A DNA stretch of 64,000 bases from an uncultured Verrucomicrobiota bacterium (GTDB taxonomy: Bacteria; Verrucomicrobiota; Verrucomicrobiia; Verrucomicrobiales; Verrucomicrobiaceae), in the NCBI GenBank assembly GCA_903848465.1, contig CAINGK010000166.1, positions 1 to 64,000 of the forward strand. The letters run 5' to 3'. A model generated the notes under the pieces. The model was given only the letters and a program-made list of their open reading frames with translations, was not told the DNA's origin and ran no database searches. Both the position numbers and the translations under genes were made by a program. The first letter of the stretch is position 1; each line of letters starts with the position of its first letter. Below are positions 3,266 to 59,806 of the stretch, piece by piece.

Positions 3266-3820
3266 ATGCCAATTGCAATACCAGATCTCAGAGTTTTTGA
3301 GTGGCTCGGCAATGACTCGAAAGGAGTGCCATATTATTTGCATCCACTGAATTTGGTCTGGAGTGACGCAGGAGTTGAGCACGACTTGCAGGTTTTCCGT
3401 GGCGCGGCAGACCAGCTTGCTGGTGAATTGGCATACTGGGCGGAAATTATTCGAGATGCCTCTTGGAGGCACTCGTTGGCTGGCTGCACCTGTCTTTTAG
3501 TCAGCCGCCGACACGAGTTCTTCGACGAGCTTTGTCAGCGATTTCGTGACGGCAGTTTCGTTGTTCCACAGATTGCCGTTACTCTCGGCTTGCTTCATGG
3601 GGCAGCCGCTCGCTCATTTTTTGAGTCGTTTTTGAACGAGCCGGATTTGCTCGGTCATCCCAAGCAGGCTGTTTCAGCACATCGAGTTTTAGTGCGTCTC
3701 GGCGCGCAGCCGATTCATAACGTCTCCATCGAATTTTGGCACAATCTTGAACGTGATGACGCGATTGTTGCAGAGAAGGTTGTCACTGCGCAGTGGGATT
3801 TTTGGTCGAGCAGAATATAA
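3266..3820 (+). CDS. Hypothetical protein
   Basis: The 184-residue product is not one I recognise. It is soluble-looking, aromatic-rich (several Trp, e.g. FEWLG, AYWAEI, IEFWHNL) and has a helical middle with RRHEFFDELCQRF. It is AT-richer than the surroundings and ends three bases short of the convergent altronate dehydratase stop, leaving no room for a terminator between them. It could be a contact-dependent or immunity-type accessory gene of the kind often found with this composition, but no motif supports that. Confidence 0.55.
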   Translation: MPIAIPDLRVFEWLGNDSKGVPYYLHPLNLVWSDAGVEHDLQVFRGAADQLAGELAYWAEIIRDASWRHSLAGCTCLLVSRRHEFFDELCQRFRDGSFVVPQIAVTLGLLHGAAARSFFESFLNEPDLLGHPKQAVSAHRVLVRLGAQPIHNVSIEFWHNLERDDAIVAEKVVTAQWDFWSSRI

Positions 3821-11882: not shown

Positions 11883-12200
11883 GACGTGAATACGGCGGGG
11901 GTGAGCGTACCATTACGGCACGCACGTCCGCGATGCAGACACGATTGAGGCCAAACTTGGTGCTTTTGTGACAGCGGGGTATTTGTTCTTTGTTATCCGT
12001 TTGCGAGTGCAGAACGCTCGCCTGCCCAGCGTACGTATTGCAGTACCTGCTTTAGCAGGCTCTGGATGGCGCGACCGGAACCGGCTGCTGCGCAGCCGCG
12101 AAGCGAACCCGGGACTGCATTACGCACGCCGTGGCATGCGGAGCGCAGGAGATGCGGCGTTTCCAGAGCGAGCTAAAGCTCGGCAGTACTTTATTCCAGC
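11883..12200. repeat. Intergenic hairpin repeats downstream of nspC
   Basis: This 318-bp gap holds no gene. It carries the hairpin CCTGC-TTTA-GCAGG at 12046-12059, a stem-loop around GCGGCTGCGC-type sequence at about 12085-12100, and a motif ATGCGGAGCGCAGGAGATGC near 12136 that resembles one at 22663. It must also hold the promoter of the giant DUF1080 gene (start 11882), but no clear -35/-10 pair was found. Confidence 0.6.
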
Positions 12201-14126
12201 TCACGAGAGCTTGTTGCGGAAATCCGCATATCCAAACCGCCGCACCACGCGGTACTCCTGCGTTGCCGGATCGTAGATAGCGATGTCAGGATGCGGCACC
12301 CCATTAAAGGTGGTGGTTTTCACCATGGTATAATGTGCCATGTCGGCAAATACGAGACGCTGACCAATGCGTAGCGGCTCCGGGAAGGAGAAGCCGCTCA
12401 GCACATCGCCAGCGAGGCAGGACATGCCGCCCATCTTGTACTCATAGGGGTGTTCGCCCGGAAGTCCCGAACCGAAGATGTACGGACGGTAGGGCATCTC
12501 CAGCGTGTCCGGCATGTGCGCTGTGGCGGAGATGTCGAGGATGACCGTGGGCACCACGCTCTCACAGGCCAGTGGCTCTGGGGCCTCGTCTTCGTCGGGA
12601 AGATCATCGAAGGCCACGCCGAGCACATGCACATCGATGGGAATCAGCGCACCGTTGGGACGACGCAAAAGATTGTCGGGCCGTGCATCCGCCACCTTGA
12701 GTCCATCGGGACGGACATAGGTGTTCTCACGATCCTTGCTAAAACCGAGCGCAGCAAAATACGCATCGATCTCCTCCACACTGGCGTTCTCCCCCAGAAT
12801 GAACGGCTGACTGCTCAGAATGCGCACGCCATCATCCGCCTGCACCACGGCCTCAAAGCGCCAGTCGAGCGCCAGCACGGCATTGCAGGCCAGAATGTTT
12901 TCCAAATAGCCCACCGCGCTGCCACGAGCACCAAAATTCGGCGGCTTGGTCCACTTGAGCACACGACCCGCCACATGGTCCACGCAGACATCGTGCTCCG
13001 AAGCGCCTTCGAGTTCTTCCAATCCTGCGGTGATGAGAGCGAGATCCGCCGCTGTGATCAGGCAGTCGTTTTCACGCGCCCACTCAAGAAGGGATTCGGT
13101 CTCGGCGTGGATCCGCTGCGCCGCATCTGGGTGATCAAGCTTTCCTTCGGCAACTGTGAGGCAGCCACGGAGTCCTGCTGCTGCATGACGCGCATCTGCT
13201 GCCGGGCGAAAGAGTTGAGGACGGGGGCGATCTTGGCCATGAGAGATGTTAGTATGAGTGTTAGCGGTGACAACTGTTGATTTCCGGTCGCCCACAATGA
13301 TGTCCTGCACTTCAGCGATGAGGTAGCCAGTATTCAGGCCTGCGGCTTCGCCGGGCTCGATGTAAACGTCCTTGCCCCACTTCTCGCGGAAGGTGCGCAG
13401 CACGCGGATGAGACGCTCCACATCGTAATCCTTGCGCGTGATGTGGTGACCGCCGCCCATGTTGACCCACTGCACCTGCTCCAGCAGGCGTGGGAAACGT
13501 TTTTCGACAGCAGCCACCGTGCGCTCCAGCACATCGCTGTCCTGTTCGCACAGGGCATGAAAGTGCAAACCTTCGACGCCAGTGAGGTCTTCGCCTTCGA
13601 GCAGGTCGGAACGAATGCCAAGGCGGCAACCCGGCGAGCAGGGATCGTAGAGCGAGACTTCGACCTCGGAGTGCTCCGGGTTCACGCGAATACCCGGACT
13701 CGGCGCATGGCCTACGGCCTTCGCGGCATCGAGCATGGGCTTGAACTTCCGAAACTGTGCCAGGGAGTTGAAGCTCAGATGATGCGAGATGGGAATGATC
13801 TCACGCATCTCCTTCTCTTTGAAAGCGGGTGCATAGACATGCACCTCCTTGCCAAATTCCTGCGCGAGCAACGCTTCGTTCAAGCCGCTCGCGCAGCAGC
13901 CGCTCAAATACTCGCGCATGATCGGAAACACGCTGAACATCGAAAAGCCCTTCAGCGCCAGCAGCACACGGGCACCGGATTCACTCTGCACACGCGCGAG
14001 TTTCTCCATGTTCTTCCGCAACAACGCCACATCCACCACATAGGCAGGCGTCTCGATGGCGTTGATGTCGAATGCAGGAAAAGGCTGCTCGTAAACGTGC
14101 GGAGGAGTGAAGTCAGTGGAGGCCAT
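12201..14126 (-). CDS. nspC: Carboxynorspermidine decarboxylase with a 243-residue internal insert
   Basis: The 641-residue frame is NspC split in two. Residues 1-278 are the PLP barrel, with the Schiff-base Lys in LLALKGFSMFS (K59), HALCEQD (190-196), NMGGGHHITR (222-231) and EPGEAAGLNTGYL (258-269). Residues 522-641 are the NspC C-terminus, with ILDISATAHMPD, the catalytic-type Cys in GGMSCLAGD (C570), and MAHYTMVKTTTFNG. Without the insert the protein would be 398 residues, the family norm. NspC makes norspermidine or spermidine from the carboxy-polyamine in an alternative polyamine pathway. The insert (residues 279-521) separates parts of one active site, so activity is doubtful unless it folds as a side domain. 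No carboxynorspermidine dehydrogenase gene is adjacent. Confidence 0.8.
   Translation of the reverse strand: MASTDFTPPHVYEQPFPAFDINAIETPAYVVDVALLRKNMEKLARVQSESGARVLLALKGFSMFSVFPIMREYLSGCCASGLNEALLAQEFGKEVHVYAPAFKEKEMREIIPISHHLSFNSLAQFRKFKPMLDAAKAVGHAPSPGIRVNPEHSEVEVSLYDPCSPGCRLGIRSDLLEGEDLTGVEGLHFHALCEQDSDVLERTVAAVEKRFPRLLEQVQWVNMGGGHHITRKDYDVERLIRVLRTFREKWGKDVYIEPGEAAGLNTGYLIAEVQDIIVGDRKSTVVTANTHTNISHGQDRPRPQLFRPAADARHAAAGLRGCLTVAEGKLDHPDAAQRIHAETESLLEWARENDCLITAADLALITAGLEELEGASEHDVCVDHVAGRVLKWTKPPNFGARGSAVGYLENILACNAVLALDWRFEAVVQADDGVRILSSQPFILGENASVEEIDAYFAALGFSKDRENTYVRPDGLKVADARPDNLLRRPNGALIPIDVHVLGVAFDDLPDEDEAPEPLACESVVPTVILDISATAHMPDTLEMPYRPYIFGSGLPGEHPYEYKMGGMSCLAGDVLSGFSFPEPLRIGQRLVFADMAHYTMVKTTTFNGVPHPDIAIYDPATQEYRVVRRFGYADFRNKLS
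12564..13292 (-). other. 729-bp insert in nspC carrying a polyvalent-protein-kinase-like reading frame
   Basis: Between codons 278 and 522 of nspC lies foreign sequence. Its first 50 bases look like a leader. An ATG at 13238-13240 in the next frame opens MAKIAPVLNSFARQQMRVMQ, which reads on well for about 32 codons. Near 13145 the coding signal passes into the nspC frame (GKLDHPDAAQRIHAETESL onward), implying an indel. The rest resembles the atypical kinase domain of polyvalent proteins: RVLKWTKPPNFGARGS, LSSQPFILGENAS, and VADARPDNLLRRPNGALIPI, like a kinase HxDxxxxN..D catalytic/metal loop. No transposase, integrase or clear target duplication is present; TGTG borders both ends but excision there would shift the frame. 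Confidence 0.65.
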
Positions 14127-14237
14127 GTAGCGGACGTGAGAAAGGTAAGTTTAAGAGAGGAGAGAGCAGGCTAGCAAATGACGAAGAATTCACCTTCGCG
14201 TTGAAGCGCATCATTCATGCTTGAGACATTCGGACTT

Positions 14238-14286
14238 CATTCGTCATTCGTCATTCGTCATTCGTCATTCGTCATTCGTCATTCGT
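14238..14286. repeat. Seven perfect copies of a 7-bp tandem repeat (CATTCGT)
   Basis: Seven uninterrupted CATTCGT units. The last base overlaps the stop codon of the sugar kinase gene (14286-14288, minus strand), so on that strand the array is the first sequence after the stop. A second 7 x 7-bp array of different sequence lies at 63550-63598, also next to a stop codon. Copy number may vary by slippage. Confidence 0.95.
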
Positions 14287-15362
14287 CACCGCTGCACCTT
14301 CGCATCTCCGCCTTCAGCCAGCTTCTGCACTTCAACAAAAGTCGCCATGCTGGTGTCTCCGGGCGTGGTCATGGCCAGAGCACCATGAGCGGCACCGTAA
14401 TCAACGGCTTTCTGCGCATCGTTTTCCACGAGCAAGCCATGGATGAGCCCGGCGACGAAGCTGTCGCCAGCACCGATACGATCAAGAATGTCGAAGCGTG
14501 GATAATTGCGGCTGCGATGGTAGCTGCCCTTGTGCCAGCAGAGCGCGCCCCAGTCATTGACGTTGGCCGTATGCACACGGCGCAGGGTGGCGGCGATGGT
14601 GTGCAAGTTGGGATACTGCGCGGCGAGCTTTTCCATCATGGGCCGCAGCTTGGCATCCTCAGCAGAGAAGATGTCGTTCGTATCCGTCGGCGTGGAAGAC
14701 GAAACAGGCGGCTCATCGCTCAGCACACCGATCATCACATTCACATAAGGCGCAAGCTGCCGGTTCAGCGCCTGCGATCCCGCAAAGCCACCGCGCTCCT
14801 GCCAGAGGGAGGGGCGGTAGTTCAGGTCATAGCTCACCGTCACGCCATGTTTCTTGGCCGCTTCACAGGCCTGAATGGTGATCTCGGCGGTGGATTCGGA
14901 CAGCCCCGCGAAGATGCCGCCGGTGTGCAGCCATTTGCAGCCGAGCGTGCCAAAGAGATGATCAAAGTCGAAGTCCCCCGGCTTGAGCTGCGAGGCGGCG
15001 CTGTGGCCGCGATCCACGCTGCCTTTGGCACCGCGCACGCCAAAGCCACGCTCGGTGAAGTTGATGGGATTGCGCACGCGTTTGCCCATACCGTCATAAG
15101 GCACCCATTTGATAAGCGAGGAATCCACGCCGCCCTGGAGGATGAGGTCTTCAATGAGGCGGCCGATCTCATTGTCGGCAAACGCCGTCAAAATACCGGC
15201 ACGCAGGCCAAAGCAGCGGCGTGCGCCGCGTGCCACATTGTATTCGCCGCCGCCCTCCCAGGCGGTGAACTGGCGTGAGGTGCGCACGCGTCCCTCACCG
15301 GGATCGAGGCGCAGGAGGACTTCACCGAGGGACAGCAGATCGTAGGCAGGTTGGGCGGACAT
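14286..15362 (-). CDS. kdgK: PfkB-family sugar kinase, probable 2-keto-3-deoxygluconate kinase
   Basis: The 358-residue protein is a ribokinase/PfkB fold: substrate-side WEGGGEYNVARGARR (about 36-50), a central SYDLNYRPSLW typical of KDG kinases (about 190-200), and the ATP/anion-hole motif DRIGAGDSFVAGL near residue 300 with the catalytic Asp. I chose the ATG at 15360-15362 (MSAQPAYDLLSLGEVL) because the family starts just before the DLLSLGE strand; a longer start at 15404 adds 14 unlikely residues. It would phosphorylate KDG to KDPG, using the product of the altronate dehydratase at 3.8-5.5 kb. Other 2-keto or fructose-type substrates remain possible. It lies upstream of nspC on the same strand, 159 bp apart. 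Confidence 0.82.
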   Translation of the reverse strand: MSAQPAYDLLSLGEVLLRLDPGEGRVRTSRQFTAWEGGGEYNVARGARRCFGLRAGILTAFADNEIGRLIEDLILQGGVDSSLIKWVPYDGMGKRVRNPINFTERGFGVRGAKGSVDRGHSAASQLKPGDFDFDHLFGTLGCKWLHTGGIFAGLSESTAEITIQACEAAKKHGVTVSYDLNYRPSLWQERGGFAGSQALNRQLAPYVNVMIGVLSDEPPVSSSTPTDTNDIFSAEDAKLRPMMEKLAAQYPNLHTIAATLRRVHTANVNDWGALCWHKGSYHRSRNYPRFDILDRIGAGDSFVAGLIHGLLVENDAQKAVDYGAAHGALAMTTPGDTSMATFVEVQKLAEGGDAKVQR

Positions 15363-59566: not shown

Positions 59567-59806
59567 CGAATAACATCCGCGCACTCTTGAGGCTCTTCTG
59601 AGTACGTTGTTCGGGGTTCGCTTCGCGGCTTCGCAGCAGCCCGTTCCGGAAGCTCCACATCGCCCCAGATCTGAAACCAGCCAGCGCACGTTTTGTAGTA
59701 CCGGCTTTAGCCGGAATCTGGAAAGCTTACTTCGTGCAAACCGCTCCCAAATACCTCCGGGTTACCCTTCGTTCCACAATCAAGCTGCCTTGAGTTCAGG
59801 TGCTCT
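59567..59806. repeat. 240-bp direct repeat, left copy
   Basis: Bases 59567-59806 match 61777-62016 over exactly 240 bp, with scattered substitutions and no gaps. The unit contains TACGTTGTTCGGGGTTCGCT, the GTAGTA-hairpin CCGGC-TTTA-GCCGG, and GAATCTGGAAAGCTTA. With its partner it flanks the alpha/alpha-barrel gene. The rest of the 59358-60099 gap shows no gene. Confidence 0.88.

Follow-up and report, generated by a model that had tools for sequence, protein, structure and literature searches.

A single open reading frame in the 64 000-nucleotide stretch of uncultured Verrucomicrobiota DNA analysed here (the window) carries a kinase-like segment between the two halves of an NspC protein. What is this insert, and what keeps it in frame inside a host gene? 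The initial annotation left two answers standing: a captured gene belonging to a mobile family that inserts in an unusual way, or a disabling insertion in polyamine synthesis that happens to stay open.

The interrupted nspC gene and its kinase domain

The nspC fusion ORF (12201–14126, minus strand) is open for 641 codons, giving a 641-residue product, and matches the NCBIfam nspC model (TIGR01047) in two stretches with 466.6 bits (cutoff 409). NspC is carboxynorspermidine decarboxylase, an enzyme of polyamine synthesis. Codons 1−278 (13293–14126, minus strand) encode the PLP barrel, which ends in QDIIV and aligns with residues 5−258 of PDB 9eaf_A; the 3′ part (12201–12563, minus strand) encodes the C-terminal sheet domain (PF00278; VPTVILDISATAHMPD, ending in KLS before the stop) and aligns with residues 264−376, placing the insertion point between residues 258 and 264 of this solved structure. 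Between the two parts lies a cassette of 729 bp (12564–13292, minus strand) that keeps the nspC frame open. As the annotation had calculated, removal of its 243 codons leaves 398 residues, equal to the uninterrupted NspC of congeners (397−398 residues), which has a short loop at this point. Because that native loop varies (EAPVPTAILD, ASDIPTAILD), the junctions are placed only to within a few codons. The joint frame is indeed open throughout, and profile searches agreed that the insert contains no transposase. With no repeats found at the boundaries either, a transposon or insertion sequence was rejected. The insert also lacks an end-to-end palindrome, and its GC composition does not contrast with that of the host gene. 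Two repeats lie nearby: a perfect 7-bp tandem repeat (TCATTCG, 7.4 copies) at window positions 14237–14288, just upstream of nspC, and an intergenic, REP-like repeat downstream of it (11990–12195). The latter has approximately 20 partial matches elsewhere in the genome, among them window positions near 59614 and 61824.

The proposed kinase-like similarity was borne out by profile search. Fusion residues 341−499 (12630–13106, minus strand) match Kinase-PolyVal (PF18762) with an E-value of 4.9e-9, and the insert alone scores above the curated cutoff (E 6.2e-10; 39.7 bits, cutoff 27). The expected catalytic residues are Lys391 in RVLK, Asp480 and Asn485 in DARPDN and the metal Asp498 in PID; among aligned copies they are conserved in 121 of 121 (K), 123 of 126 (D), 124 of 126 (N) and 123 of 124 (metal D) cases. 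E99, K113, Q162, D202, N207 and D220 are invariant in a diverse alignment (A4), E99 and Q162 being matched by position, not structure, to the Glu before strand 2 and the Gln of the last N-lobe strand. The AlphaFold prediction for the complete fusion was too poor for use (pLDDT 55); the insert was modelled with a pLDDT of 76.7 and a predicted kinase-like fold that stops soon after the metal Asp. Its best structural neighbours are protein kinases, OspG, NleH and HopBF1 among them, with Z-scores of up to 8.1 that perhaps reflect only the common kinase arrangement and Foldseek E-values above 0.001. Searches of the kinase sequence against solved structures gave no credible match.

Substitution rates speak against a disabled gene. 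Estimates of dN/dS are 0.04−0.13 for the NspC host halves in the nspC pairs tested and 0.03−0.36 for the kinase core; on these values, both the host halves and the kinase core are under purifying selection. Together with the kept catalytic residues, this makes a disabling insertion very unlikely. The second of the two initial readings is thus not supported, the fusion gene being moreover the sole NspC match in its genome. One LigA-borne relative (L230, in genome G129) has lost both its catalytic residues and the small-ORF ATG described below, and is a pseudokinase.

Distribution across host genes

Alignment with intact NspC proteins revealed that the insert is far from universal. A first search found it in four of 34 congeneric genomes with a detected NspC, the source genome included; the others are intact, which rules out an ancient, fixed NspC domain. 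The same nspC site is occupied in ten genomes: these four, three more genus-wide and a further three order-wide, the last from other genera of the same family. In a contig labelled Akkermansia muciniphila (L126, CAMCWM010000219.1), both nspC and the insert are almost the same as in the window genus, and the record is probably mislabelled.

A cassette of the same kind lies in frame within the NAD-dependent DNA ligase LigA in approximately 45 genomes of another family and one of a third family. Here the insertion point falls between stretches ending RTIRSIPLEL and beginning LEVRGEIF, corresponding to the gap between residues 161 and 163 of the E. coli LigA structure (2owo_A). The NspC and LigA insertions thus both fall in short loops. 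Simple repeats of the AAAATTC type, read in frame as KIQNSKFKIP, were observed in the LigA loop (L158, positions 3573–3600; L201 and other LigA loci). They are present even in a LigA copy without the kinase, and this loop is perhaps a general insertion hot spot.

Other hosts are rarer. In one genome the cassette occupies the N-terminal domain of GlgB, compared congeners being intact; in this copy a TTG may serve as kinase start, and the frame is truncated upstream where the contig stops. Fusions to the C-terminus of an oligopeptide/dipeptide ABC ATPase (DppD/OppD; L076, L082, L084, L085 and L151−L154) occur in at least eight genomes from several genera. Remaining relatives are part of large, prophage-like polyvalent proteins or are free-standing. 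Searches of phage and plasmid collections yielded no match, and viral contigs yielded one, on a contig equal in length to that of the G018 polyvalent copy. Beyond the order, a sample of the phylum contributed nothing but weak relatives. In the source genome no second copy of the exact insert is present, but the kinase family has five loci there in all. Four more of its members (L117−L120, on G000 contigs 122, 58, 191 and 54) are free-standing genes, the first three with an overlapping small ORF in the +1 frame. Overall, the structure recurs in more than 50 genomes, and since independently assembled genomes share the in-frame arrangement, it is not an assembly artefact.

The small overlapping gene and its predicted promoter

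The annotation had noted that the insert carries its own leader and ATG (13238–13240), followed by a short stretch in another frame. The leader and start codon proved real: the ATG at 13240 opens an ORF of 60 codons in the +1 frame relative to nspC and the kinase (13058–13240, minus strand, stop at 13058–13060; MAKIAPVLNSFARQQMRVMQQQDSVAASQLPKESLITQMRRSGSTPRPNPFLSGRVKTTA), which is conserved in other copies. The stretch in another frame is likewise present, but it appears to be more than a stretch, namely a second gene with its own predicted promoter. A +1-frame ORF of like pattern, encoding 60−75 residues across copies, overlaps the kinase N-terminus in nearly all kinase loci examined.

Conservation of the +1 frame was scored against a null in which the synonymous codons of the kinase frame were randomized in 23 divergent copies, a procedure that does not fully remove shared ancestry. 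Z-scores in the overlap were 18.8, 31.9 and 19.7, falling to approximately zero over most of the remaining kinase, and the first two overlap windows contain no stop codons where about 10 were expected. Synonymous change is suppressed too: across the ten pairs tested, dS is much lower in the overlap than in the kinase core (e.g. 0.05 versus 2.58, and 0.00 versus 0.30). The codon randomization and the suppressed synonymous change together rule out the +1-frame ORF as a by-product of kinase conservation; judged by these patterns, it is a gene in its own right, under purifying selection. Its product, which contains a conserved R-R-N/S-G-S, has no family match in Pfam, PHROGs, NCBIfam or PADLOC.

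A predicted sigma70-like promoter, TTGTCA-16-TAACAT (13246–13273, minus strand), ends 5 nt upstream of the small-ORF ATG and is the sole promoter-like site in 12900–14300. Of 33 LigA copies, 30 have TTGAC ahead of the small ORF (29 of them at −36 from the ATG), against 3.5 under a codon-shuffle null (maximum 9), and a TA-rich second hexamer follows 17 nt beyond it, about 7 nt before the ATG. Enrichment of the promoter beyond codon choice reaches z-scores of 8.0 for NspC and 12.7 for LigA; it is also seen in polyvalent and free-standing copies and is weaker in the DppD copies. The −10 element is weaker in NspC copies than in LigA. A trivial origin of TTGAC from a conserved Val-Asp was ruled out, because the overlapping codon encodes V, I, L or F while TTGAC is unchanged. 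The position of the promoter would suit leaderless or near-leaderless expression of the small ORF, and promoter and start codon together suggest that it is expressed, so that both kinase and small protein would be produced.

The kinase itself has no start codon near the small ORF in any of the LigA (33 of 33), NspC (9 of 9) or DppD (8 of 8) copies, which implies that in these contexts translation through the host gene is the sole route to the kinase. More than half of the free-standing copies have a kinase start, sometimes 4−7 nt upstream of the small-ORF ATG.

Movement between genomes and the nature of the cassette

The first of the two initial readings, a captured gene of a mobile family, is upheld by the patchy distribution, by the copies in LigA, GlgB and DppD and by evidence of transfer independent of the host gene. 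In the kinase tree, sequences that share an insertion site fall together (38 rows for LigA, with support 100; 10 rows for NspC, with support 95). AU tests set the two histories against each other: nspC rejects the kinase groupings (p = 9e-4 and 6e-4), and the union of genome G068 with G028 and G066, as found for nspC, is in turn rejected by the kinase (p = 6e-56). The nspC flanks of G068 are approximately 90–98% identical to those of G028 and G066 up to both boundaries. These boundaries are sharp: within the insert, identity to the same two genomes drops to about half, and G011 and G014 are the closer match. Site clustering combined with conflict between the trees indicates that cassettes pass from one species to another at the same site, leaving the host flanks behind.

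For LigA, presence of the cassette on the tree requires 16 changes, at least 10 of them forced by well-supported branches. One host pair gave a marginal tree test (p = 0.038) and another group was not significant, which leaves NspC as the main support for movement. Some of the patchy presence in LigA is due to loss: G293 retains a scar in which the promoter and small ORF are kept and the kinase core is gone, and in G358 only the promoter end is left. These scars point to losses by in-frame deletion, and because of them gains and losses in LigA are not separated. No mobility enzyme (nuclease, transposase or recombinase) is encoded by the cassette.

The anatomy of the cassette, the selection on it and its movement, as read from sequence comparison, lead us to consider it probable that the insert represents a mobile cassette of two genes, double-coding and resident in frame within the genes of its hosts. 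One layer is a minimal kinase domain of the polyvalent type in the host reading frame, the other a protein of 60−75 residues in the +1 frame, preceded by the internal sigma70-like promoter from which it would be separately expressed. The host protein would remain unspliced and functional, bearing the kinase in a surface loop, and the small protein would act as the cognate regulator of the kinase, resembling an antidote or pseudosubstrate. This role is suggested by the gene arrangement and by a few decayed copies in which the kinase is broken and the small ORF intact; the reverse decay is rare, the kinase also being the longer target. We favour a cassette that is selfish or addiction-like. Its place in a needed gene would shield it from deletion, since no loss other than a precise, in-frame one is tolerated, and scars of such losses do occur. 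Spread would probably proceed by recombination between occupied and empty alleles; no nuclease for homing in the strict sense is encoded.

We regard it as unlikely that the cassette is instead a domesticated regulatory or immune domain. The kinase would then have been recruited into NspC, LigA, GlgB and DppD as an integral sensor, or a decoy, of infection or stress. It would phosphorylate the host enzyme or a partner, the small protein would serve to trigger or inhibit it, and host selection instead of selfishness would keep it in place. Purifying selection on the kinase core and its catalytic residues would suit such a role, as would relatives in prophage polyvalent proteins (PMC5512222), but the patchiness, the repeated change at one site, the LigA scars and the host-independent transfer better fit a dispensable mobile cassette, and a PADLOC search gave no defence-family match.

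It is quite improbable that the roles are divided the other way, the small protein being a mobility factor for target recognition or recombination and the kinase its cargo, in a minimal homing cassette. Whatever the context, no other part of the cassette is as constant as the small ORF, which also outlives the kinase deletion in G293, and copies recur at the same sites. Yet its product has no nuclease, recombinase or other family match, and mere cargo would have no need of purifying selection on the kinase core.

An intein or self-splicing intron, removed at the protein or RNA level, is very improbable, even though a same-site, in-frame, patchy and horizontally moving insert in essential genes is their population pattern. 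No Hint domain was matched, and the boundary residues (V-G...C-E-S) provide neither a Cys/Ser start nor a His-Asn end. There is no Rfam match up to an E-value of 1 in 12100–14300; the insert is always in frame, which is not required of introns, and its ends differ between sites. A decaying or artefactual insertion, open by chance, can be considered negligible: some contigs are MAG-derived and the exact insert is single-copy in its genome, but more than 50 independently assembled genomes share the structure, with low dN/dS in the host halves and kinase core.

If the insert is a mobile, double-coding cassette, then essential coding sequence can house selfish or domesticated DNA that is not spliced out, and a second gene can be nested there in a different frame. 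LigA, a core replication enzyme, appears to carry the kinase in dozens of species. Double coding is clear in several cases here, with selection that can be measured, and how in-frame mobile elements come back to one site with no nuclease becomes a directly testable question.

No description of the arrangement was found in the open literature (subscription papers and preprints were outside the scope of the search), and several known systems share parts of it. Kinase toxin–antitoxin modules, such as those of the HipA type, pair a kinase with a small, separately expressed protein. The cassette likewise has two overlapping genes, one of them small and with its own predicted promoter, and includes copies in which the kinase is broken and the small ORF intact. 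Unlike HipA-type modules, its frames are nested, its kinase appears to be translated only via the host gene and its small protein belongs to no known family. Inteins and homing introns occupy fixed sites in essential genes, are patchy and horizontally moving, and their copies cluster by site. The cassette differs from them in having no splicing domain, ribozyme or homing nuclease, and the insert appears to stay in the protein.

Rickettsia palindromic elements are also mobile, lie in frame in unrelated genes and are translated with the product (PMC10969869). Residence in the unrelated genes NspC, LigA, GlgB and DppD is similar, but those elements are palindromes of approximately 150 bp encoding one peptide, whereas the cassette spans approximately 730 bp, combines an enzyme domain with a separately started second gene and recurs at one site. 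The kinase belongs to the same family as the Kinase-PolyVal domains (PF18762) described by Iyer et al. (2017) from prophage polyvalent proteins, which are short kinases that lack a C-lobe and conserve the catalytic residues (PMC5512222). These were already known in Verrucomicrobia, and cassette-like recombination into the main locus was suggested by those authors (PMC5512222). A search of that text, in which the words ‘inserted’ and ‘overlap’ are absent, gave no description of residence in frame within housekeeping genes, of an overlapping gene in the +1 frame or of an internal promoter. We see an even chance that the insert represents a new class, a non-splicing, in-frame mobile cassette whose kinase would exist only inside core enzymes of the host, the essential DNA ligase among them, and would be checked by a nested small protein with its own promoter. 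The cassette would spread between species into identical sites, as inteins do. A nested gene with a predicted promoter of its own, movement into the same site and an apparent lack of splicing form a combination absent from polyvalent-protein kinases, Rickettsia palindromic elements and inteins.
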